A stretch of DNA of 64,000 nt from Alphaproteobacteria bacterium (GTDB lineage: Bacteria; Pseudomonadota; Alphaproteobacteria; Rs-D84), in the NCBI GenBank assembly GCA_015062545.1, contig SUUL01000004.1:1-64000 (forward strand), given 5' to 3'. A program made the position numbers and the translations under genes. Below the pieces are notes generated by a model that was not told the DNA's origin, did not search any database, and saw nothing but the letters and a program-made list of their open reading frames with translations. Position 1 is the stretch's first letter. Every line of letters begins with the position of its first letter. Below, one piece after another: positions 19,739-64,000 of the stretch.

Positions 19739-19835
19739 ATCTAATGACTTATCTAAAAGGAAAAACGATGGCTCATGTAACTTTTGTACACTACGCCATC
19801 GTTTTCCCTTTTATCTAAATCATTATCTTTAATTT
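19732..19835. repeat. 104-bp hairpin repeat, copy A
   Basis: The element is bounded by the inverted termini AAATTAAA and TTTAATTT. Further inward pairings are TAATGA/TCATTA and AAAAGG/CCTTTT. A central 11-bp stem, AAAACGATGGC (19762-19772) with GCCATCGTTTT (19795-19805), carries the 22-nt loop 19773-19794 (TCATGTA, 7 variable bases ending in TG, TACACTAC). It differs from copy B (63685-63788) at about one position. It begins inside the stop region of the preceding gene. Confidence 0.85.
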
Positions 19836-52480: not shown

Positions 52481-54763
52481 ATGGCAAAGAAATCAACTTT
52501 TTTACCGGGCAGTATATCAGATGCTTTGCGGTCAATGTCCAGCCGATTGGTGGGGGTGTTGATTTTTCTGATTGGTGGATGGGCGACATGTGCGTTGTTG
52601 TTTTATAATCCGTATTTAGATGGATTTGGTGTGGCCAGTACGTTGGGTGGTCAGTCTGTGATGGGATGGATTGTTGGATGTATCCGTTATGGTGTTGGTG
52701 CGGTGCCGGCATTGTTTCTGTTTTTGTGTGTGATGCGATTCGGTTTTGTGAAGTTGGTTGGATTGCATGGTGATTATGCGCCAGAATATGATTTCTTGCG
52801 TGGGTTTATTGCATTGTGTTTGGGGGCGGTTGGATTGGGCTTGATGTCGCCAAATGCATCTTATGGCGGGCTGTTTGGTGCGATTGCGGCGGCGGATTTG
52901 ATGGCGCTGATGGGTAATGTTGCAATTATTGTTGGAATTTTTTCTTTTGTTGGTTTTTTGTGGATGGCGGGCAGCTTGTTGCATGTGCGTTTGTCGCATT
53001 TGCGGTGGGCAATGCGCTTGATGTACAAGTGGTTGCGCGTTATTGCCGCGGCGTTCAGATTGACAGATATGACCCCTGCCCAAGTGTTGGCAGAATCTGA
53101 TGATGAAGAAGATATAGAAGAAGACGAAGAGATTGGGGAAGATGAAGAAGAGGCTTCAGAAGAAAAGCCAAAGCGCAGTTTGCTGGGACGTAAAAACCAA
53201 AAGAAAGTGGCGGGTGCTGTGGCCGCGGTTGCCACGCCAAAGCGTGCGCGCGCGGGAACGCAATTCAAATTGCCAGATCCGAAAATGTTGGAAAAGTCAA
53301 ATTTCAGTAAATATTCTGTAACACCAGAATTAAAGCAAAATGCCCGCAGTATGGAAGTGAAATTTGCGCAATATGGTGTGCGTGGCAAGGTGGTTGGAAT
53401 CAAGCCTGGGCCAATCGTTACTTTGTATGAATTTATGCCAGATGATGGTACGCGTATGGCGGATGTTAATAAAACTGTAACAGATATGACGCGCGCGATG
53501 GCAACAGAAAGTATTCGTATCGCACATATTCCACGTACACAATTAATTGGTGTAGAAATGGTGAACTTAACCCGTCAAACTGTGCGTTATCGTGGTCTGA
53601 TGGAAAATCCGCTGTTTGTGGAATCTAAATATAAAATACCATTGGCGTTGGGGGTTGATATTGGTGGCAATCCAATGTTCTTTGATTTGGCGAAAATGCC
53701 GCACATGCTGGTTGCAGGGCGTACAGGGTCTGGTAAGTCTGTGTTTGTACAATCAATTATTACGTCTATTGTGTATCACTTTACACCAGACAAGTGTAAA
53801 CTGATTATTATTGACCCAAAGGGTGTTGACTTTGGTTTTTGGGATGATATTCCACATTTAATCACACCGATTGTTAAGTTAGAACCAGAGCCGGCTGTAA
53901 ATGCTTTGAAATGGGCGGTGCGTGAAATGGAAGAACGTTATAAACAATTACAGGTTCTGAATGCGCGCAATATTGAAAGTTATAATGAAATTGCAGCGCA
54001 GAAACGCGAGGCTGGTGAAAAAATTACTAAACAAGTCGCAGTTGGTACAGACGAAGAAACCGGGGAATTATTATTTGAAACCCAAGAAGTAGATTTGTCA
54101 GATATGCCATATATGGTCATTATTATTGACGAGGTTGCGGATTTGATGAGTTTGGCGCGTAAAGACGTAGAAGCCTGTGTGCAACGTATTGCACAAAAGG
54201 CACGTGCGGCGGGTATTCACTTGGTTATGGCGACCCAGCGTCCAGACGCAACAACAATTACAGGTGTTATCAAGGCAAATTTCCCAACGCGTATTTCTTT
54301 CCAGGCGCGCAGCCGTATTGATAGTGTGACATGTCTGGGTGAAGGCGGGGCAGAGCAGTTATTGGCAATGGGTGACATGTTATTCAGCGAGGCCGGCCGC
54401 GTTCCTGTGCGTATCCATGGTGCGTTTATCGATGACAATGAATTGAAACGTATTGGTGATTTCTTGCGCAGTCAAGGCGCGCCAGAATATGCCGAAGGCG
54501 TTACGGATTCTGCCGATGGTGGCATGGGGGGTGGCGATATTGCCGGCATCCCAGGGGCGATTGGTGGTGCGTCTGGGGATAAAGATGCGGATTTATATGC
54601 GCGCGCCAAAGAATGTGTTTTGCGTGATAAAAAACCGACAATTTCTTATATTCAGCGCCGTTTACAAATTGGCTATAACAAGGCTGCAGGCTTTATGGAA
54701 CGCATGGAAGAAGATGGTATTGTGTCTGCGCCTGATGCAAATAACAAACGTCACATCCTGTAA
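52481..54763 (+). CDS. ftsK: DNA translocase FtsK
   Basis: 760 aa. FtsK pumps the chromosome through the closing septum and activates XerCD recombination at dif. Four N-terminal helices (about 20-40, 65-90, 105-125, 138-160) anchor it; an acidic/Lys linker (about 205-260, DEEDIEEDEEIGEDEEEASE) follows; the motor has Walker A GRTGSGKSV (about 413-421), Walker B MVIIIDEVADLM (about 545-556), and the RAAGIHLVMATQRPDATTIT region. A winged-helix gamma domain (about 700-760, PTISYIQRRLQIGYNKAAGF) reads KOPS. The stop codon is immediately followed by repeat copy C. xerD is at 42906 on the other strand. Confidence 0.97.
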   Translation: MAKKSTFLPGSISDALRSMSSRLVGVLIFLIGGWATCALLFYNPYLDGFGVASTLGGQSVMGWIVGCIRYGVGAVPALFLFLCVMRFGFVKLVGLHGDYAPEYDFLRGFIALCLGAVGLGLMSPNASYGGLFGAIAAADLMALMGNVAIIVGIFSFVGFLWMAGSLLHVRLSHLRWAMRLMYKWLRVIAAAFRLTDMTPAQVLAESDDEEDIEEDEEIGEDEEEASEEKPKRSLLGRKNQKKVAGAVAAVATPKRARAGTQFKLPDPKMLEKSNFSKYSVTPELKQNARSMEVKFAQYGVRGKVVGIKPGPIVTLYEFMPDDGTRMADVNKTVTDMTRAMATESIRIAHIPRTQLIGVEMVNLTRQTVRYRGLMENPLFVESKYKIPLALGVDIGGNPMFFDLAKMPHMLVAGRTGSGKSVFVQSIITSIVYHFTPDKCKLIIIDPKGVDFGFWDDIPHLITPIVKLEPEPAVNALKWAVREMEERYKQLQVLNARNIESYNEIAAQKREAGEKITKQVAVGTDEETGELLFETQEVDLSDMPYMVIIIDEVADLMSLARKDVEACVQRIAQKARAAGIHLVMATQRPDATTITGVIKANFPTRISFQARSRIDSVTCLGEGGAEQLLAMGDMLFSEAGRVPVRIHGAFIDDNELKRIGDFLRSQGAPEYAEGVTDSADGGMGGGDIAGIPGAIGGASGDKDADLYARAKECVLRDKKPTISYIQRRLQIGYNKAAGFMERMEEDGIVSAPDANNKRHIL

Positions 54764-54865
54764 ATTAAATATAATAATTCATCTACAAGCGGTGCCGGCA
54801 ATTCATGTAGCGTCTGTACACTACATTGCCGGCACTACTTGTATCTAAATCATTATCTTTAATTT
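54762..54865. repeat. 104-bp hairpin repeat, copy C
   Basis: Same length and termini as copy A (AAATTAAA at 54762, TTTAATTT ending at 54865) but different stems: TACAAG/CTTGTA in place of AAAAGG/CCTTTT, and GTGCCGGCAAT (54792-54802) with ATTGCCGGCAC (54825-54835) in place of AAAACGATGGC/GCCATCGTTTT. The 22-nt loop (54803-54824) keeps TCATGTA, TG and TACACTAC. It starts in the stop codon of ftsK. Confidence 0.85.
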
Positions 54866-54945
54866 ACTGCATTTCTGGGTGTGGGTATAATTTTTACTTT
54901 TATATAAATCTTTTTTATGTTAGAATAAGTTACATTAGAGAGAGT

Positions 54946-57051
54946 ATGAAGTTTATCAAAAGATTTTTTATAATGATGCTGTGCGTCATGCCGACATTGG
55001 CAGGCGCTCAGATTGCGACCACTGCGGGGGATAATTTAACGGCATGGAATGGAAACAGTGGTGCAACCAATAATAATAATTGGAATACAATGATGAACAG
55101 TCGTACGTTGGCAACGGCAAATATGCCAACGGCTGATTTTGGGAATTGTAATTCTTTGATTTTGCGTTGTGCGCAACCAAAATGCGCGGGGTGCACAACG
55201 GTTGATTTGGCGCGCTCTATTGTTGCGGGGTGTGTGAACAGTAATGCATCTTGCAAACAGTATGGTAATGAATTGATTGAATATATTTCTGCACAGATTG
55301 TTGCAAGCGCAAATTCAAAAATGCAAGAACAGCAAATGATGGCGCAACAGGCGGCCGCACAGCAGGCGGCTGCGCAGAGCAGTGCGCAGATGCAGCAAAT
55401 GCAACAACAAATGATGCAAATGCAACAGCAGATGCAGGAACAAAATGCGGCACAGATGGCACAAATGCAGGCGGCATTAGAAGAACAAAAGGCATTGGCC
55501 GCCCAAGCGCAGAGCGAGGCATTGGCCGCCCAGCAGGCACAATATGATGCTGCCGCTGCGCAATCTGCGGCCAGTGATGCTGCGGCAAATCAAACGGTTT
55601 CGGGACGTGAATTGACAACGGCACAACGTGTGGCAGCAGAATCGGGAATATCCGAAGATTTGTTGGCGCGTCAGACAATTTCTGGGGAAATTTTAACGGC
55701 GGTTGAAAATGCAGAATTGCAATTAAAAAACCTGAATGCCACCATGCAAGAGGCGTTTACTTATGCCGGCTGTGATAAACGTGGTAATAATTGCAAGGGG
55801 CCAAAACGTGTCAAGATGTTCAAGGAAAAAGCGCAGCGGTTCTTTCAGCCTTATGATGATATAGTTGATGAATTGTATGATGCCTTGGAATTGTCTTTGG
55901 CGGTTGGTGTTGATATTACAGATGTTATCATGATGTTAAATGGTGCGTGTAATCGTTGGGGTAAATATATGTGTCGTCCAGACAAAGGTGCGGATAATAG
56001 CAGTAACTTTGCCAAAGAATATCCAACATACAGCACGAAAGATTGTGTAAATGAAAAGTCTGTTGCGGGTGCGGAAGATTCTGTTGTTCGTGGCGGTCAA
56101 TCGTGTCGTATCGGGATGGTGGTTCCGCCCCAAGATGATGTCAGATGTGTTTTGACCAGTGTAATTACTGAAAATAACAGCAAAGATATTGAACGTCAGT
56201 GGGTTATGGAAAATGAAGATGATGATGGCTTGGTTCGGTTAGGGTGTGCAACATCTGCGTTGGATACGTTGGCGATATTTGGTCGCCGCAGTAATAAGAA
56301 GGCATCAACAGTATCGATGGAGATTTTAGAACGTATTTTATTACAAGATGCGCCAGAATATTCGTCAAACAATCGTTTTTCGCGTGGAAATTCGGAATCG
56401 GCACAGGTGGCCAAAACCAAATATTGCGCCGTTACCGAAGATGGGTATAATAATTTGGTTTCTGCATTGAATACGCAGAAATTGCCAAAGACGGTTTGTA
56501 TTAGTGATAAGAAGTTAACTAATATCGCCATGAAGGGTGCAATTATGGCATCTGGATTCAAGGGCAGTGGATTAAGTGACAGTGGTGTTGTTCCGGGGGT
56601 TGATGAAGAAGAATTGTGTGATTGGTGGGGGCTAAGAGCAAAAAGTATTGATGACAGTTGTGGTACAACATGGGATGATGCGTCCAAGCGTTGTGGTTAT
56701 TATGGACTGTGCAAGTTTGAAAATAGTGATTTTGTTAAGAGTGATATTGCAATGATAGATGCTGTTGGGTTGGAAAGAGAGTTAAATTATATGGAGAGTA
56801 AATTAGATAATTATGTTGAAGGTGTACAAAATAAAATGTGGTCAACTGCGGGGGGGGGGGGTAAAGTTGCTGAGCTGAAAGATGATGTGTATTGGCAAAG
56901 TCTTGCCCAGGTGGAGGATGAAGTTATAGAAGATGATCCGGCGTGGAAGTTAATTACACCAAAGGATACCTGTGAAGCAAAAGGAAAAAAGTGGGTGCCA
57001 AACGATTTTTATAAGGATAATGGTAAGTATGGAACATGTGTAGATAAATAA
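54946..57051 (+). CDS. Large exported Gln-rich protein with a G12 tract
   Basis: 701 aa from the ATG at 54946 (AGAGAGAG upstream). The signal peptide is MKFIKRFFIMMLCVMPTLAG (cleavage near AGA-Q). After a Cys-containing part (CAQPKCAGC near 67-75), a Gln/Ala/Met-rich coiled-coil region spans about 122-205. A middle domain with conserved-looking DDIVDELYDALELS (about 303-316) and many Cys follows. At codons 636-639 four Gly are encoded by part of a G12 run (56850-56861); beyond it lies a C-terminal module of about 62 residues with a C-x-A-x-G-x-x-W pattern. The protein is probably periplasmic or surface-exposed. A reading back to 54826 would pass through the promoter and repeat region. No family known to me. 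Confidence 0.75.
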   Translation: MKFIKRFFIMMLCVMPTLAGAQIATTAGDNLTAWNGNSGATNNNNWNTMMNSRTLATANMPTADFGNCNSLILRCAQPKCAGCTTVDLARSIVAGCVNSNASCKQYGNELIEYISAQIVASANSKMQEQQMMAQQAAAQQAAAQSSAQMQQMQQQMMQMQQQMQEQNAAQMAQMQAALEEQKALAAQAQSEALAAQQAQYDAAAAQSAASDAAANQTVSGRELTTAQRVAAESGISEDLLARQTISGEILTAVENAELQLKNLNATMQEAFTYAGCDKRGNNCKGPKRVKMFKEKAQRFFQPYDDIVDELYDALELSLAVGVDITDVIMMLNGACNRWGKYMCRPDKGADNSSNFAKEYPTYSTKDCVNEKSVAGAEDSVVRGGQSCRIGMVVPPQDDVRCVLTSVITENNSKDIERQWVMENEDDDGLVRLGCATSALDTLAIFGRRSNKKASTVSMEILERILLQDAPEYSSNNRFSRGNSESAQVAKTKYCAVTEDGYNNLVSALNTQKLPKTVCISDKKLTNIAMKGAIMASGFKGSGLSDSGVVPGVDEEELCDWWGLRAKSIDDSCGTTWDDASKRCGYYGLCKFENSDFVKSDIAMIDAVGLERELNYMESKLDNYVEGVQNKMWSTAGGGGKVAELKDDVYWQSLAQVEDEVIEDDPAWKLITPKDTCEAKGKKWVPNDFYKDNGKYGTCVDK
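56850..56861 (+). repeat. G12 homopolymer inside the 54946 gene
   Basis: Twelve consecutive G in a coding frame. With 12 G the frame continues as Ala-Gly4-Lys; with 13 G the next codon is TAA; with 11 G a TGA follows within about six codons. Such a tract should slip during replication. Confidence 0.85.
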
Positions 57052-57057
57052 TATAAA

Positions 57058-57807
57058 ATGAAAAACTGGAAAAATATTTTGTTCAAAGTTTTATCTGTGG
57101 CAATCGTAACGATGGTCGTGGTGCCGGTGTGGGCGGCGGATGACGGTTGTGATAATGATGATAATAATATGATTACACCAGAATTGGCACTGTGTTCAAC
57201 GCATGCATATAATGTAGGGGTGATTGAAAACCCCAGTGATTCTGGCGATCGGGCTTTTATGCAAGAAATTATCGCAATGAAAACAACACTGATAACGCAG
57301 CAAATGTTTCGGCAATATGAACAAATGGAATCTATGTTGAATCGTCTGAAGACCCAGTTGGAAAAAGCAGTTTTGACCAATGACTTGAAGGTCGCCAGTG
57401 GTAATACAGATGATGAGGAGGATATTAAGTCCAGTGGTTACAGGGCGACCGATGGAACTTATGTGGTTTGTGCGCAAAATTGTTTGAATAAGTATCAGAT
57501 GGCAGAAGCGTTGGATTGTTATGAAAAAAATCTGGCATGTGTGCAACAGCAGTCCGCAAATGGTGAAAATATAACATCGGAATTGAAAAAACAATTATGG
57601 GCAGATTGGAAACAATTAAGCAACTTGAAAGTAGCTGATGGGTCTGGGCCTTGTGGTCTTTCTAAGGATGTAGAAGAGGTTAAAGATGCCAAAGAGCTGA
57701 AATCTAAAAAGTTCAAGGCCCTGTTAAATGATATGCGCGGATGTTTGCGGAATAAGTATTCTGATTACCAGAACGGTCAATTGAAGTTAAAGGCTGGAAT
57801 AAAATAA
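57058..57807 (+). CDS. Exported protein, second gene of the pair
   Basis: 249 aa. MKNWKNILFKVLSVAIVTMV is the start of a signal peptide with cleavage likely after VWA (about residue 26). The mature protein is acidic and helical, with Cys in an isolated N-terminal part (DDGCDNDDNN, LALCSTHAY), a coiled-coil-like segment (about 80-110, QQMFRQYEQMESMLNRLKTQ) and a CAQNCLNKYQMAEALDCYEK stretch with regularly placed Cys (about 139-158). The family is not known to me, but the composition resembles that of the flanking exported proteins. It begins 6 bases after the 54946 gene, so the two are co-transcribed, and any frameshift in the G12 tract could affect its translation. A terminator follows at 57808. 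Confidence 0.7.
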   Translation: MKNWKNILFKVLSVAIVTMVVVPVWAADDGCDNDDNNMITPELALCSTHAYNVGVIENPSDSGDRAFMQEIIAMKTTLITQQMFRQYEQMESMLNRLKTQLEKAVLTNDLKVASGNTDDEEDIKSSGYRATDGTYVVCAQNCLNKYQMAEALDCYEKNLACVQQQSANGENITSELKKQLWADWKQLSNLKVADGSGPCGLSKDVEEVKDAKELKSKKFKALLNDMRGCLRNKYSDYQNGQLKLKAGIK

Positions 57808-57834
57808 ATATCCCGCGGGTGCGGGATTTTTATT
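57808..57834 (+). terminator. Terminator of the 54946-57807 operon
   Basis: ATCCCGC/GCGGGAT with a GGGT loop and TTTTATTT behind it, starting right after the stop codon. Confidence 0.85.
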
Positions 57835-57902
57835 TGTTGAAATTTTGTCGTCCTGATATGGGAATATAAAAAAAGAATTGTGAATTGCATGCTTAATAAG
57901 TG

Positions 57903-57931
57903 TTTACATAATGGCAAAAAATTGATATAAT
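57903..57931 (+). promoter_or_regulatory. Promoter of the 58018 gene
   Basis: TTTACA (57903-57908), a 17-bp spacer and TATAAT (57926-57931). The predicted leader is about 80 nt and contains GGTTGGATTTCTGGGTAAAACC-like inverted sequence before the ribosome site AAGGAGAG. Confidence 0.65.
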
Positions 57932-58017
57932 CAAGTATAGTAAACGTGCATTGTGCGCGGTGAAATCTTATAGAAAGGTTGGATTTCTGGGTAAAACCAG
58001 AATACAAGGAGAGCTGA

Positions 58018-60933
58018 ATGAAAGGGCAGAAATTTTTAAGTTCATTGAAAAATGCAATGGGAACGGTCATGTTGCTGGCGGGCGCGTTTTTCGTGTGTTC
58101 AACTGTGCTGTCTATCCGTACGGTGTTTGCAGACCCAATCGCACCGGTAAATATGGATGTTTATGGTGTGCAGTCTGGACGTGCAAGTGCACGTACATCT
58201 GGTCGTGCCAGTCCACGTGGTGCAAATTCTGCCACGTCACGCGCGACTGTTGCGCGCACGGCGGTTGCAAATGGACGTGTAAATGCAACGCCTGTACGTA
58301 ATGTGAATTCACGCACAGTTGCCAGTCGTACAACATCACCACGTGCAAATGCCACATCATCCAGAAATGTCGTATCGCGCGAGGCGAATGTTATAAATCG
58401 TGCAAATCAGGCGCGTAATGTTCGTGCACGTACGGCGGTCGCAAATGGTGTATCTACGGCCGCGGGGGCGCGTGTGTCCTTGGCAGGCAGTGCGGTTCGC
58501 GGTAACAAAGGTACAACATCCACCAATTATTCTTATCTGACAAATAAATTATATACGGGGAATTATTCCAATATTATTGATTCAACAACCGGATTGATTT
58601 CCGATGATGCGTATCAGGTATGTATGGAATCTTATTATACATGTATGGACGAAATTTGTACTGCGCGTAATGCCGCGCAACGCAGATGTGCGTGTGCGGG
58701 CCGTGTCAAGGCATTTGCAGATGCCGAAGCGCAACTGGAAACAGCAAATGAAGAACTTATCAAAGTGTCAGGTGAATTGGCGTTGTTGATTGCAAACAAG
58801 GGTAAAGATGTTTCGGTTGCTTTCCAATTAACAGATGCAGAAAAGGTTATGAACTGTGTTTCTTGGAAGGATACAACCAATCAATATGGTGTTAATTCGC
58901 AAGAAGCAATAGATTGGTGTTCAAATCATGGTATCTTTAATAATGGCAAAACGGTTACCAGTTGTGCGAAACCAGAATATTGTTCCGAAGCCGGAAATGA
59001 CTTTGGTTTTGATGTTTCCACGTTGGATGGAACGGGGTCTGATATTTTGGCAACACTGAAATCGTGGGCAGATGCCAAAGATAATACAATCACAATCTTG
59101 CAAGACGACAAAGAAGGTTTGTTGGGGGCGTTCGAAGGAATTTCAAATGTTGTTGGCAGTGTGTCCGGTATCAGTGGGGCATTTGCAGATGCCGAAGATT
59201 TAGAAGATACATTGGCGGAAACATGGGGATATGATTTGTTTGCACATGCACATAACGAAGTTTGTAGCCGCGTTTTGGATTCTTGCTTTAATGGTATTTA
59301 CGAAGCATGTGGTTCGCCATCTTCGTTTGGAGGCAAGTGCGCAAATGGTCAATCGTCAAATTGTCCGTTTAACTATAATTCCAAGATAGAAGTTTCCAAA
59401 GCAGGGGATATTACATTGAATGAACGTGGTGCAACAGTTACAACAAATTCCAGTGCAACATGCTTTGGTTATACATCTGCATCGGGCGACCCATATTCCA
59501 GTTTGCGTGGGCCGGTCGCAGATGCACGCCGCAGCATTATGAATAAATATCTGTTGGATGCAAATGCGGACTGTGATGCGTATGGTGAACAGTTGCGCAT
59601 AACCGCACAAAATATCGGTTATCAAAAGGTTGCCGCACAACAAGCGTTGCAACAGAAACGTTTGGAATTTGATAACGAAGAAAAAGAAACTGTCTTGGCC
59701 CAGGCAATAGAGGCAATGGGTAACTTTGATGAATGTATCAGTGAAATTATGGATTGCTATGAAACACAGGCACGTTCAAATGATAACTGGACAGATGCAC
59801 GTATCAAGACATACTGTGCACAGATTGCAAATGTTCCACATTGTTATGAAGAAATGATTTGTAATCCATCAATGGCACAATTCCGTGCGGTTATTGATGT
59901 CGCGGATAGTGGCAGCTGTAAAAACAGCCAAGACTATACCCAGAATACATGCCGCAATGTCGTGACATTGAATGAAATTATCAATGGATTTGGCAACAGT
60001 GTAGAGGCAGATTATATCGCAGCAGAAGGCACGGGTTCTTCAATCGCAATGCGTGAACAGTGCTTGATGGATGCGGGTATAGATGCCGTCAGAAATTGGT
60101 CTGCATTTGAAGAAGCAGCGGACAGGGTTAGATGTTCTGTTGCAGAATTGAATAATGTCAATGCAAAGCAAGGTTGGAAGAGAAGTGCAGATAAAGAATG
60201 TACAGAAATTACAGTATGTAAGGATGGTTATGAACTGAAGGGTGGTAAGTGTGAGGTGTCCGACTCTTCTGCTGATGACGATGATAATACGCCAGGTAAC
60301 GATGATAACCCATCTGGTTCCACCGGGGGGGGGGGGAATAAGGTTACTTGTTCTGCAAATCAGGTAGAATATAATAACCAATGTTATTACAAGACCCGGT
60401 CATGTGCGCCAATGCCCGCGAATGCCAAGTCGGGAACACAGACTTTTGAGAATGGCGCGTATAGTGATTGCGTAATTTCGGAATGTAACAATGGTTATAC
60501 TCTGGATAGTAATTTATGCCATGCGTCTAAAAAGGATTGTGATACGAAGGGAGAAGGCGTAAGCAAAGGGTATCAGGAATATAATAAAAACACTGGTTAT
60601 TATGGTGCCTGTATTATTACAGAATGCGTAGATGGCTATGAATTGCAGAATAATAGTTGCGTAAAGCAACAATCTGAGAGAGAAGCATGTGTCGATGCTG
60701 GCGGAGAATGGGAGGCGGATTCTTCAACATGTATTTGTTATGAGCCGGACGGTGATATATATGGGTTTAAGCCAGCTGAATGGAATCCAAAGACATTGAA
60801 ATGTGAGTGTGATAGCGGATTTGATAAACTCGGTAATGAATGTCACCCAGCTACAGAAGACGCATGCACAGATCTGGGTGGTAGCTGGATAGAAGATGAA
60901 GAAGGTGGAGATAGTCATTATTGTGAGATTTAA
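58018..60933 (+). CDS. Large exported Cys-rich protein with a G12 tract
   Basis: 971 aa. The signal segment lies at about 14-38 with cleavage near VFA-D. Residues about 50-165 form an Arg/Ala/Asn/Thr/Ser-rich, strongly basic low-complexity region in which RTAVANG occurs twice. The central 600 residues contain many Cys (for example YQVCMESYYTCMDEIC near 201-216, CACAG) likely in disulfides. Codons 770-773 are GGG four times, encoded by a G12 run (60325-60336). Behind it lie three or four repeats of a C-x-x-G-Y-E/T-L-x-x-x-x-C pattern, like EGF-type modules, and a last C-x-x-x-G-G-x-W module similar to the end of the 54946 protein. I do not know a family. The protein is probably at the cell surface. 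Confidence 0.75.
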   Translation: MKGQKFLSSLKNAMGTVMLLAGAFFVCSTVLSIRTVFADPIAPVNMDVYGVQSGRASARTSGRASPRGANSATSRATVARTAVANGRVNATPVRNVNSRTVASRTTSPRANATSSRNVVSREANVINRANQARNVRARTAVANGVSTAAGARVSLAGSAVRGNKGTTSTNYSYLTNKLYTGNYSNIIDSTTGLISDDAYQVCMESYYTCMDEICTARNAAQRRCACAGRVKAFADAEAQLETANEELIKVSGELALLIANKGKDVSVAFQLTDAEKVMNCVSWKDTTNQYGVNSQEAIDWCSNHGIFNNGKTVTSCAKPEYCSEAGNDFGFDVSTLDGTGSDILATLKSWADAKDNTITILQDDKEGLLGAFEGISNVVGSVSGISGAFADAEDLEDTLAETWGYDLFAHAHNEVCSRVLDSCFNGIYEACGSPSSFGGKCANGQSSNCPFNYNSKIEVSKAGDITLNERGATVTTNSSATCFGYTSASGDPYSSLRGPVADARRSIMNKYLLDANADCDAYGEQLRITAQNIGYQKVAAQQALQQKRLEFDNEEKETVLAQAIEAMGNFDECISEIMDCYETQARSNDNWTDARIKTYCAQIANVPHCYEEMICNPSMAQFRAVIDVADSGSCKNSQDYTQNTCRNVVTLNEIINGFGNSVEADYIAAEGTGSSIAMREQCLMDAGIDAVRNWSAFEEAADRVRCSVAELNNVNAKQGWKRSADKECTEITVCKDGYELKGGKCEVSDSSADDDDNTPGNDDNPSGSTGGGGNKVTCSANQVEYNNQCYYKTRSCAPMPANAKSGTQTFENGAYSDCVISECNNGYTLDSNLCHASKKDCDTKGEGVSKGYQEYNKNTGYYGACIITECVDGYELQNNSCVKQQSEREACVDAGGEWEADSSTCICYEPDGDIYGFKPAEWNPKTLKCECDSGFDKLGNECHPATEDACTDLGGSWIEDEEGGDSHYCEI
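60325..60336 (+). repeat. G12 homopolymer inside the 58018 gene
   Basis: Twelve G in frame (Ser-Thr-Gly4-Asn-Lys). With 13 G the frame reads GAA then TAA; with 11 G it stops at a TAG after about 9 codons. It lies directly before the C-terminal repeat region. Confidence 0.85.
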
Positions 60934-60935
60934 TA

Positions 60936-60964
60936 AAAATCCCGCTGTTTGGCGGGATTTTTTG
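60936..60964. terminator. Terminator between the 58018 gene and mnmE
   Basis: AATCCCGC/GCGGGATT with a 6-nt loop, T-run to the right and A-run to the left, between convergent genes. Confidence 0.85.
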
Positions 60965-60992
60965 TGTCAGATATCTTGAACGTGAATTGATA

Positions 60993-62318
60993 TTATTTTC
61001 CCAGACACAGTTGACCAAATGTTTTATCCAAAACTTCGGACGTGGTGATTGTGCCAAGAATCTTGCCAATCGTGTCCGTGGCGCGGCGGGTGTGTTCCGC
61101 AAATATGTCGTAATTATCACCAGCCTGTAACGCCATGTGCAAATCTGCGCGGGCGGTTTCCAATAATGCTTTTGTGCGGGCGTTGATTACCAAATTGTTT
61201 TCAGATCCATCCATAAGTGTGTGAATCTTGTCGCGCAGGGCGGTCAATAAGTCAGGCATCCCATCGCCAGTATGTGCAGATACGTACAAGTAATTTTCAA
61301 TATCCAAAATGTGATTCCCAGATTTTGGTAACAAATCCGATTTGTTTATAACAATGATTTCATTGTCAGAATCTTTGGGGGTGAATTTTGCTGGCAGTTG
61401 TTCCGGTGTGTACACGTGAACAACAATATCTGCATTTTCTATTTCTGTCTTGGTGCGTTCAATACCAATGCTTTCAATTTTGTCATCTGTTTCACGCAGG
61501 CCCGCGGTGTCAGATAAATTTACCATAAAACCATCAATGTCCAGATTAACCGATACAACATCACGTGTTGTGCCGGCAATATCTGATACAATCGCACGGT
61601 TCGAACCCGCCAAATAATTAAATATGGATGATTTTCCAACATTCGTTTCGCCAACCAATGCAATATTTATACCACCACGAATCGCACGGGATGTGTTGTA
61701 TCCATTTAATGCATTGTTAATTTCTTTATATAACTTTTCTGTGCGCGTGTAAATCGTTTCGCCAATGTTTGCGGGTAAATCATCCGCGTTGTAGTCCAAT
61801 ATTGCCGCCGCATACGCGGATATCTCAACCATCTGGTTGCGCCACGTGTTGTAAATTTCGCTGTCGCGTCCCAGCATGGATTTTAAGGCGTGTTTTCTTT
61901 GTTGGTCGGTTTGTGCATCCAGTAATGCCGCCAGACCATCAACGTCCGCCAAGTCCATCTTGTTGTTGTAAAATGCGCGTCTGGAAAATTCCCCAGGGGT
62001 TGCCATGCGCATGCCCAATGTTTTCAGGTATTCAAATGTCGCGTTAATTGTTGCCGGCGCGCCGTGCGTGTGTAATTCAATAACGTCCGTGCCGGTAAAA
62101 CTGTGTGGGGCGGGAAAATATATCGCCAGACATTGGTCGATTAAATCGTCCGTGGTATCGGTCAAATTACAAAAATATGCGTGGCGGGGGACAAATTCCG
62201 ATTTGTTTATGAATTTGGAAAAAATGTCTGACAGATGGTCGCCAGATATACGAATAACCGCAACGCCGGATTTGCCGTGCCCGCTGGATAATGCAAAAAT
62301 TGTGTCGTTTGTATTCAT
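60993..62318 (-). CDS. mnmE: tRNA modification GTPase MnmE
   Basis: 441 aa, normal length. With MnmG it makes 5-carboxymethylaminomethyl groups at the wobble U of several tRNAs. The N-terminal tetrahydrofolate-binding domain begins TIFALSSGHGKSGVAVIRIS (5-24). The helical domain holds an inserted G domain: GETNVGKSSIFNYLAG (about 223-238), DIAGTTRD (about 247-254), DTAGLRETDD (about 267-276), NKSD (about 325-328). The C-terminus is CLGK, where the family has C-[IL]-G-K with the catalytic Cys. The start codon overlaps the end of ruvA by one base, so the two are coupled. Confidence 0.96.
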   Translation of the reverse strand: MNTNDTIFALSSGHGKSGVAVIRISGDHLSDIFSKFINKSEFVPRHAYFCNLTDTTDDLIDQCLAIYFPAPHSFTGTDVIELHTHGAPATINATFEYLKTLGMRMATPGEFSRRAFYNNKMDLADVDGLAALLDAQTDQQRKHALKSMLGRDSEIYNTWRNQMVEISAYAAAILDYNADDLPANIGETIYTRTEKLYKEINNALNGYNTSRAIRGGINIALVGETNVGKSSIFNYLAGSNRAIVSDIAGTTRDVVSVNLDIDGFMVNLSDTAGLRETDDKIESIGIERTKTEIENADIVVHVYTPEQLPAKFTPKDSDNEIIVINKSDLLPKSGNHILDIENYLYVSAHTGDGMPDLLTALRDKIHTLMDGSENNLVINARTKALLETARADLHMALQAGDNYDIFAEHTRRATDTIGKILGTITTSEVLDKTFGQLCLGK

Positions 62319-62911
62319 TATTTATTACCACTTATTTCTTTCAATGCCAATGGAACCAGTTTAGATACGTCTGCCGTTGGATTTTGATTTACCAATTTTT
62401 GTGCCATTTCAATTATGTCTAATCTGCGATAGCCCAATGCTTCCAGCGCCATCAATAAATCAGGCAGGGCAGAACCTGCGCTGGATGTGCCGCCGGTGTC
62501 TGGGGCAAATAATGTTGCAGATGCGCCACCGACTTTGTTTTTCAATTCAACAATGATTTTTTCTGCCATCTTTTTGCCAACGCCTGGGGCGGTTGCAATC
62601 GTTTTGGCATCGCCGGTCGCGATTGCAGACATTAAGGTGTCAGAATTTATTGTGCCCAAAATCGCCAAGGCAACCTTTGGACCCACACCAGATACGCCTG
62701 TTAACATATTAAACAGGTTTTGCCCGTTTAGCGTTGTGAAACCAAACAGACGAATTGAATCTTCGCGCACAACCGTTTCAATCCACAGTTCAACAGTACT
62801 TTTATGTGTCAGGTATTCTGCTGTATAGACCTTGTATCCGACACCGCCTGTTAATAAAATAACAAAACCATCGCCGATATAGTCAACTATGCCTTGCAAT
62901 TTTCCAATCAT
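62318..62911 (-). CDS. ruvA: Holliday junction helicase subunit RuvA
   Basis: 197 aa. RuvA binds Holliday junctions as a tetramer and loads the RuvB motor. The N-terminal OB-fold begins MIGKLQGIVDYIGDGFVILL, followed by two helix-hairpin-helix motifs (VSGVGPKVALAIL near 73-85 and APGVGKKMAEKIIVELK near 108-124), a flexible linker (about 135-148) and the C-terminal domain III (about 150-197) that binds RuvB. ruvB and ruvC are not seen in the window; mnmE is coupled downstream instead. The ATG at 62909-62911 follows AAAAGGATAAC. Confidence 0.96.
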   Translation of the reverse strand: MIGKLQGIVDYIGDGFVILLTGGVGYKVYTAEYLTHKSTVELWIETVVREDSIRLFGFTTLNGQNLFNMLTGVSGVGPKVALAILGTINSDTLMSAIATGDAKTIATAPGVGKKMAEKIIVELKNKVGGASATLFAPDTGGTSSAGSALPDLLMALEALGYRRLDIIEMAQKLVNQNPTADVSKLVPLALKEISGNK

Positions 62912-62961
62912 TTGTTATCCTTTTGGGGTAATTTTAATCTAAATAAATAAAAAGGTCAAAT

Positions 62962-63678
62962 ATGAGTGGACACAGTAAATGGCATAATATTCAACATAAA
63001 AAGGGCGCGGCAGACGCTGCACGCAGTGGCTTGTTTACCAAGTTGGCACGTGAAATTACAATGGCGGCAAAGTTGGGCGATAAAAATCCTGATAATAACC
63101 CACGCCTTCGCTTGGCGATTTTGACAGCCCGCAAAAATTCTATGCCAAATGATAACATCAAGCGCGCGATTGACAAGGCATCTGGCGCGAACACAGAAAG
63201 CTATGAAGCGGTACGTTACGAAGGGTATGGACCGGGGGCTGTACCTGTTATCGTAGAAGCCTTGACCGATAACCCACGCCGTACAGTGCCAGAAATCCGT
63301 AATATCTTTGCCAAAAATGGTGGTAATATGGGCGAAGAAGGTTCTGTTGTATTTATGTTTACACGCGCGGGTCAAATCATGTACCCGGCATCAATCGGTA
63401 AAACCGAAGATGAAATGATGGAAATTATTATGGAAGCAAATGCGGATAATTTGGAAACATCAGAAGAGGGCTTTATCATCACAACAAAACCCGAAGATTT
63501 TATCAACGCACAAAAATACTTGGCGGATATTTTGGGTGAACCAGAACAGGCAGAATTAACCTGGTTACCAAACATGCCAATGGATTTGGATGATGAAGCG
63601 TATGCCAAAATTGAAAAATTGGTAGATGCGCTGGATGCAAATGATGATGTGCAGAAGGTGTTTACAGCGGCTGCCTAA
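62962..63678 (+). CDS. yebC: YebC/PmpR-family protein
   Basis: 238 aa, the usual length. Members bind DNA as transcription regulators in some bacteria, and recent work links them to ribosomal elongation through difficult peptide stretches; the role here is open. The N-terminus MSGHSKWHNIQHKKGAADAA is the family's hallmark, followed by FTKLAREITMAAKLG (about 27-41), NPRLRLAI, ARKNSMPNDNIKRAI (about 55-69) and YEGYGPGAVPVIVEALTDNP (about 89-108). AAAAAGG precedes the ATG. It is divergent from ruvA by 50 bases, a common neighbourhood for yebC. A cluster of three repeat units begins a few bases after its stop codon. Confidence 0.95.
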   Translation: MSGHSKWHNIQHKKGAADAARSGLFTKLAREITMAAKLGDKNPDNNPRLRLAILTARKNSMPNDNIKRAIDKASGANTESYEAVRYEGYGPGAVPVIVEALTDNPRRTVPEIRNIFAKNGGNMGEEGSVVFMFTRAGQIMYPASIGKTEDEMMEIIMEANADNLETSEEGFIITTKPEDFINAQKYLADILGEPEQAELTWLPNMPMDLDDEAYAKIEKLVDALDANDDVQKVFTAAA

Positions 63679-63684
63679 AAAAAT

Positions 63685-63788
63685 AAATTAAATCTAATGA
63701 CTTATCTAAAAGGAAAAACGATGGCTCATGTAACTTTTGTACACTACGCCATCGTTTTTCCTTTTATCTAAATCATTATCTTTAATTT
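63685..63788. repeat. 104-bp hairpin repeat, copy B
   Basis: Practically identical to copy A (about one difference over 104 bases, in the T/C run at the right stem) although 44 kb away. It begins 7 bases after the yebC stop codon and is the first of three units in tandem. Confidence 0.85.
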
Positions 63789-63881
63789 CTTTCGCTAATC
63801 TTGGGGTTGGGTGGAATCTCATGTATCGCATGTACACTACGATTCCCGATTTGTTTTTATCTAAATCATTATCTTTAATTT
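63789..63881. repeat. Hairpin repeat, copy D (left arm divergent)
   Basis: The right half (TTTTTATCTAAATCATTATC then TTTAATTT, 63856-63881) equals copy B. The central stem is GGAATC (63813-63818) with GATTCC (63841-63846) around the conserved loop 63819-63840 (TCATGTA, TCGCATG, TACACTAC). The left outer arm is not recognisable. Confidence 0.75.
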
Positions 63882-63960
63882 CTTACCATCGCAAGGAGTT
63901 GTTGGGCGATGGCTTATGTAACTTGGTGTACACTACGCCATCGTTTTTGGTTTTTTTATC
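63882..63960. repeat. Hairpin repeat, copy E (terminator-like)
   Basis: CGATGGC (63907-63913) pairs with GCCATCG (63937-63943) around a 23-nt loop (TTATGTA, ACTTGGTG, TACACTAC). A third segment, CCATCGC (63886-63892), can pair with GCGATGG (63906-63912) instead, so two hairpins compete. A T-rich stretch follows (TTTTTGGTTTTTTT). The outer arms TTTAATTT are missing on the right. Confidence 0.7.
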
Positions 63961-63984
63961 CTTTTTTATATACGTATTTTATGC

Positions 63985-63990
63985 TATAAT
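63985..63990 (+). promoter_or_regulatory. -10 element near the right edge
   Basis: A perfect TATAAT ten bases before the window end, with an A/T-rich region where a -35 would be. It probably starts a gene beyond the window. Confidence 0.4.
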
Positions 63991-64000
63991 TTATCAAAAG

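Follow-up and report, generated by a model that had tools for sequence, protein, structure and literature searches.

A poly-G tract in an exported-protein gene of a reduced gut alphaproteobacterium as a probable phase-variable contingency locus

The window analysed here, a stretch of 64,000 nucleotides, belongs to a genome of 939 kb from a relative of Candidatus Enterousia, reduced gut Alphaproteobacteria of the order Rs-D84. Three genes for predicted exported proteins, which we call A, B and C, lie in it side by side on the forward strand. The features used below are as follows, with positions given in the window and related genomes given by L numbers.

54946-57051, + strand: gene A, predicted 701-aa exported protein; homologues in 103 of 115 genomes of the genus
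56850-56861, + strand: G12 tract, proposed slippage switch, GCG GGG GGG GGG GGT; counterparts in L025, L053, L054 and L175
56862-57048, + strand: putatively switchable C-terminal segment of 62 residues, made up of a flexible linker and, at about 670-700, a small Cys module
57058-57807, + strand: gene B, predicted 249-aa exported partner, starting 6 nt after A
57810-57827, + strand: terminator-like hairpin and T-run closing the A-B unit, a consensus match only
57903-57931, + strand: promoter-like site for gene C, TTTACA-17-TATAAT with TG before the -10, a consensus match only
58018-60933, + strand: gene C, predicted 971-aa exported protein with a core of ~690 aa followed by a Cys-repeat extension
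60325-60336, + strand: second G12 tract, ACC GGG GGG GGG GGG AAT, in frame in gene C
19755-19835, 54785-54865, 63715-63788, 63795-63881 and 63890-63955: repeated intergenic hairpin element with the conserved loop CATGTAnC..TGTACACTAC

A preliminary description had singled out a run of 12 G in the exported-protein gene starting at 54946 and proposed that it acts as a phase switch. The run at 56850-56861 contains exactly 12 G and is read in frame as GCG GGG GGG GGG GGT AAA. Reading gene A in silico with 12 G gives the product of 701 aa, with G13 a product of 639 aa ended by a TAA abutting the tract, and with G11 one of 643 aa ended by a TGA after six codons (GVKLLS, then stop), so that 62 (G13) or 58 (G11) residues are lost. 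The immediate stop on gain of a G, the TGA within a few codons on loss of one and the removal of about 62 C-terminal residues were thus all described correctly. A change in the length of the tract alters both the reading frame and the product, as in an SSR-mediated contingency gene.

Protein A consists of a putative signal peptide, a Gln/Met-rich helical region, a conserved Cys-containing core and a hypervariable Cys-rich tail. Its N terminus is signal-peptide-like (MKFIKRFFIMMLCVMPTLAGA) and its Cys residues are conserved, features of a putative exported or surface-related protein. The first ~520 residues are conserved among homologues and the tail is hypervariable save for Cys and GG motifs. 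Searches for known families with A, B and C as queries (Pfam, NCBIfam, PDB profile) returned nothing usable, with no family found for A in Pfam, NCBIfam or PDB, and a search of IMG/VR gave no copy of the flank of the gene A tract. The AlphaFold model of A is of low confidence (mean pLDDT 62, pTM 0.33) and Foldseek found nothing for it in the PDB at E values under 1; we therefore make no claim about the fold. Within the model, pLDDT lies below 50 at residues 621-669 and at about 70-80 at 670-700, and the region round the tract (621-669) is predicted to be disordered and to be followed by a small Cys-containing element at 670-700. The most economical reading is that of a flexible Gly linker, with its codons kept as GGG, so that an exposed Cys module can be gained or lost by slippage. 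The hypervariability of the tail and the predicted export point to an outward-facing contact.

The start codon of gene B at 57058 confirms that the next gene begins 6 bases past the stop of A. Across the genus, 55 of 72 gaps between the stop of A and the start of B fall within -20 to 30 nt (median 0), often as ATGA overlaps, and this placement of the B start at or over the A stop in relatives is the spacing of translationally coupled genes. In 10 of 73 species (L070, L072, L074, L076, L080, L081, L082, L207, L208 and L209) A and B are fused into one open reading frame that is devoid of the variable Cys tail. Fusion and tight spacing together support a joint action of A and B and make it likely that the switch affects B. 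The uncoupling of the next gene raised in the preliminary description is plausible in the light of both, and would presumably lower the translation of B.

A second G12 tract, at 60325-60336 in gene C, was overlooked in the preliminary description. The ~690-aa core of C is present in nearly all genomes of the genus and the Cys-repeat extension in a minority, and the tract sits where the Cys-repeat tail begins; a shift of +1 or -1 G would shorten C, of 971 aa, to 774 or 782. As consensus matches, the hairpin at 57810-57827 and the promoter-like site at 57903-57931 point to one unit for A-B and another for C.

One copy of the repeated intergenic hairpin element is located directly upstream of gene A. 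The stems differ in sequence and yet are complementary in most copies, the one at 63795-63881 folding no better than shuffles. All copies but the last (63890-63955) share a tail (TATCTAAATCATTATCTTTAAT); the tail has ten copies in the genome, including two pairs about 95 bp apart. No Rfam match was obtained within 54000-64000.

The two G12 tracts are the sole G/C runs of at least 10 in the 938,825-bp genome, all others being 9 or shorter (one G9, seven G8). A G12 is expected between 0.01 (independent bases) and 0.03 (first-order Markov) times per genome, as against the two seen, and the shorter runs agree with the first-order model, which predicts about 10 runs of at least 8. Shuffles give an expectation of 0.19 G9 runs per 64 kb, and no run of A or T within the window is longer than 8. 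The tract of gene A, which lies inside the gene, exceeds its chance length, as is characteristic of contingency genes.

One alternative is that a Gly-linker tract grew neutrally in a hypervariable tail under weak constraint and may slip occasionally, its switching being unselected and the out-of-frame relatives representing recent damaging frameshifts. The tail is indeed the least conserved part of A, the tract is present in only some relatives, and the 97 tracts of G10 or longer that occur genus-wide (in 60 of 156 genomes) are near the Markov expectation of about 0.6 per genome. When synonymous codons are re-drawn, however, a run of at least 12 G turns up in only about 0.4% (A) and 0.3% (C) of trials, yet such a run has arisen twice. 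The position of the tracts in relatives and the state of one hidden tail, described below, also speak against neutral growth, which we consider improbable.

Given this near-Markov count, an unusually large phasome is not claimed for the genus; the idea was tempered further as most out-of-frame cases beyond A and a GT92 glycosyltransferase gene come without proof by homology. By simple ORF criteria, about 21 of the 97 genus tracts are read in frame within a long ORF and about 12 interrupt one. The GT92 gene is the only case in the genus besides A that is proven by homology: L237 carries its 5' G11 tract in frame and L288 out of frame, the two species also differing by one A just past the tract. 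Further tracts were seen early in an ORF at L232:1502 (G20, apparently out of frame) and midway along a carbon-nitrogen hydrolase gene at L244:2002 (G11, in frame), the latter possibly encoding an apolipoprotein N-acyltransferase.

The homologues of gene A belong to uncultured Alphaproteobacteria from animal guts; two carry the title Candidatus Enterousia, and the placement of the window's genome is drawn from such relatives within the genus. The genomes compared are assemblies, mostly metagenomic and one per species, in which homopolymer lengths can be miscalled. Among 73 homologues, six have a tract of G8 or longer in the tail and one has it in the core, a placement (6/7) with a probability of about 4e-4 by length share. 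In a tree built on the core of A (73 rows), five of the six tail-tract homologues fall in one 12-member clade with support of 100/100, and their tracts (G8-G12) share the same position, the boundary of core and tail; five of the 12 clade members thus carry a tract, or six counting the G7 of L055. The tract is in frame in the window (G12), L025 (G9) and L054 (G8), and out of frame in L175 (G10) and L053 (G8), so that one locus shows varied lengths and both phases, in each case between species, as a contingency gene would. The stop straight after the tract (GGTAA when shifted) is also present in L175 and L025.

Long homopolymers are error-prone in metagenome assemblies, and poly-G occurs at contig ends in a few genomes of the genus, which raises the prospect that the G12 length is a sequencing or assembly artefact and that the true tract is shorter or interrupted. 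The tract nevertheless lies 16 kb from the contig end, its open frame stops 6 nt before B as is typical of the family, and same-position tracts are present in independently assembled genomes; we regard an artefact as very unlikely.

The out-of-frame genes retain their tails. In L175 the 73 residues read in the frame one base off are homologous to the tail that L054 has in frame (SCGDYTTPFTCNLNDGCKWNGSICILD versus TCADYTTGVTCNNAPGISCKWDGSNCILD), and in L053 the alternative frame encodes a Cys module of 60 residues. Matched against the in-frame tails of relatives, the hidden tail of L175 reaches a score of 105, equalled by 0 of 300 shuffles, and that of L053 a score of 73, reached by 1 of 300. 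Both hidden tails stop 4 nt ahead of the ATG of gene B, like the tails of in-frame relatives with their gaps close to 0, whereas the genes as assembled out of frame leave A-B gaps of 224 and 159 nt, well beyond the genus pattern (median of 0). With hidden tails that are homologous and end 4 nt before B, the two loci therefore have the look of intact genes caught in the off phase rather than decayed ones. Over 35 codons the L175 hidden tail differs from L054 with pN of 0.33 and pS of 0.74, a low pN/pS at synonymous saturation, and on this comparison of sequences it is under purifying selection, the one tail that could be tested. This conservation, and the occurrence of the tracts at one boundary in five species, are the observations that neutral growth accommodates poorly.

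In L174, gene A stops 121 nt before B and a Cys-rich stretch goes on in another frame, with no G tract present, possibly as the result of another frameshift.

Hidden tails that stay conserved would also fit slippage of RNA synthesis or of the ribosome on the G run, by which one genotype would yield both protein forms and out-of-frame genes would be partly rescued. Transcriptional slippage on homopolymers rescues frameshifts in some reduced genomes, but the best-known natural cases involve A/T runs. Since such slippage also leaves the G7-G12 length differences between species unexplained, we give it little credence.

Same-place tracts in five species, of which two are out of frame yet keep their tails intact, uphold the phase-switch reading of the preliminary description, and from these comparisons we conclude that the G12 tract of gene A is probably a genuine phase-variable contingency locus, a reversible frameshift switch. 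The presence of both phases across species with the hidden tail kept is the expected signature of phase variation, and the in-frame position of both G12 tracts in adjacent exported genes also counts for a switch, as does the GT92 gene seen elsewhere in the genus in both frame states. The restriction of the tract to part of the clade and the near-Markov genus count weigh against it, as does the retention of mutS and mutL in the genome, which should lower slippage rates. Loss of mismatch repair was considered as the cause of the tracts and dropped, as MutS and MutL are present.

In the proposed switch, replication slippage would add or remove a G, presumably at high frequency and reversibly in vivo. 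A population would then be a mixture of cells with the full 701-aa protein (G12, or three G more or fewer) and others with a form of 639-643 aa that is devoid of the C-terminal linker and Cys module. As B starts a few bases past the stop of A and is probably coupled to it, a stop ~190 nt early would be likely to lower B. The G12 of gene C, by its look in a transcription unit of its own, would switch the Cys-repeat tail independently. A may also be surface-exposed and have a role in interaction with a partner, the host, phage or the immune system. More tentatively, two separate poly-G switches in adjoining units might turn the Cys-rich C-terminal modules of two exported proteins on and off in combination, with the amount of B also under control of the first switch. 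Such a display would have four states and might serve evasion or adhesion to partner cells; we think this possible but lean against it.

Poly-G slippage phase variation typifies the mucosal members of the beta-, gamma- and epsilonproteobacteria. The host matches the Candidatus Enterousia of PMC12306168 in genus, genome size and gut habitat; the genomes described there, of order Rs-D84, are near 0.9 Mb and without TCA cycle or respiratory chain, and are reported to encode numerous hypothetical proteins bound to membranes, with a possible part in cell-cell interaction. Nowhere does that paper use the term 'phase variation', and a limited search of the literature on phase variation and homopolymer tracts (Alphaproteobacteria, gut, symbiont) returned none for this genus. 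The locus is thus a contingency locus of known kind, in a lineage without reported phase variation within that search. That both phases occur across species in an uncultured, metabolically dependent genus of the gut suggests that its exported proteins face an opponent or partner that changes, and the two loci lend themselves to direct reading in gut metagenomes already at hand.

As coding homopolymers that serve as sites of reversible inactivation, the tracts of Orsi et al. 2010 (PMC2831843) resemble the one in gene A; poly-A/T tracts were found there to be biased to gene 5' ends and poly-G/C tracts to be without such bias, and, unlike the 5'-biased poly-A/T, the tract of gene A is a 3'-proximal poly-G. 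The closest likeness in design is to the surface genes of Campylobacter jejuni and to nalP and other SSR genes of Neisseria meningitidis, in which a long G (or C) tract lies within a gene coding for an exported or surface-modifying protein, as the tract here does in the gene of the predicted exported protein A, +1 or -1 truncates at once, and both frame states occur among genomes. Unlike those loci, gene A, known here from assemblies, belongs to an alphaproteobacterial host that has only two long tracts in its genome and retains mutS and mutL, and its tract lies near the 3' end, where a shift would trim a C-terminal module rather than silence the whole protein.
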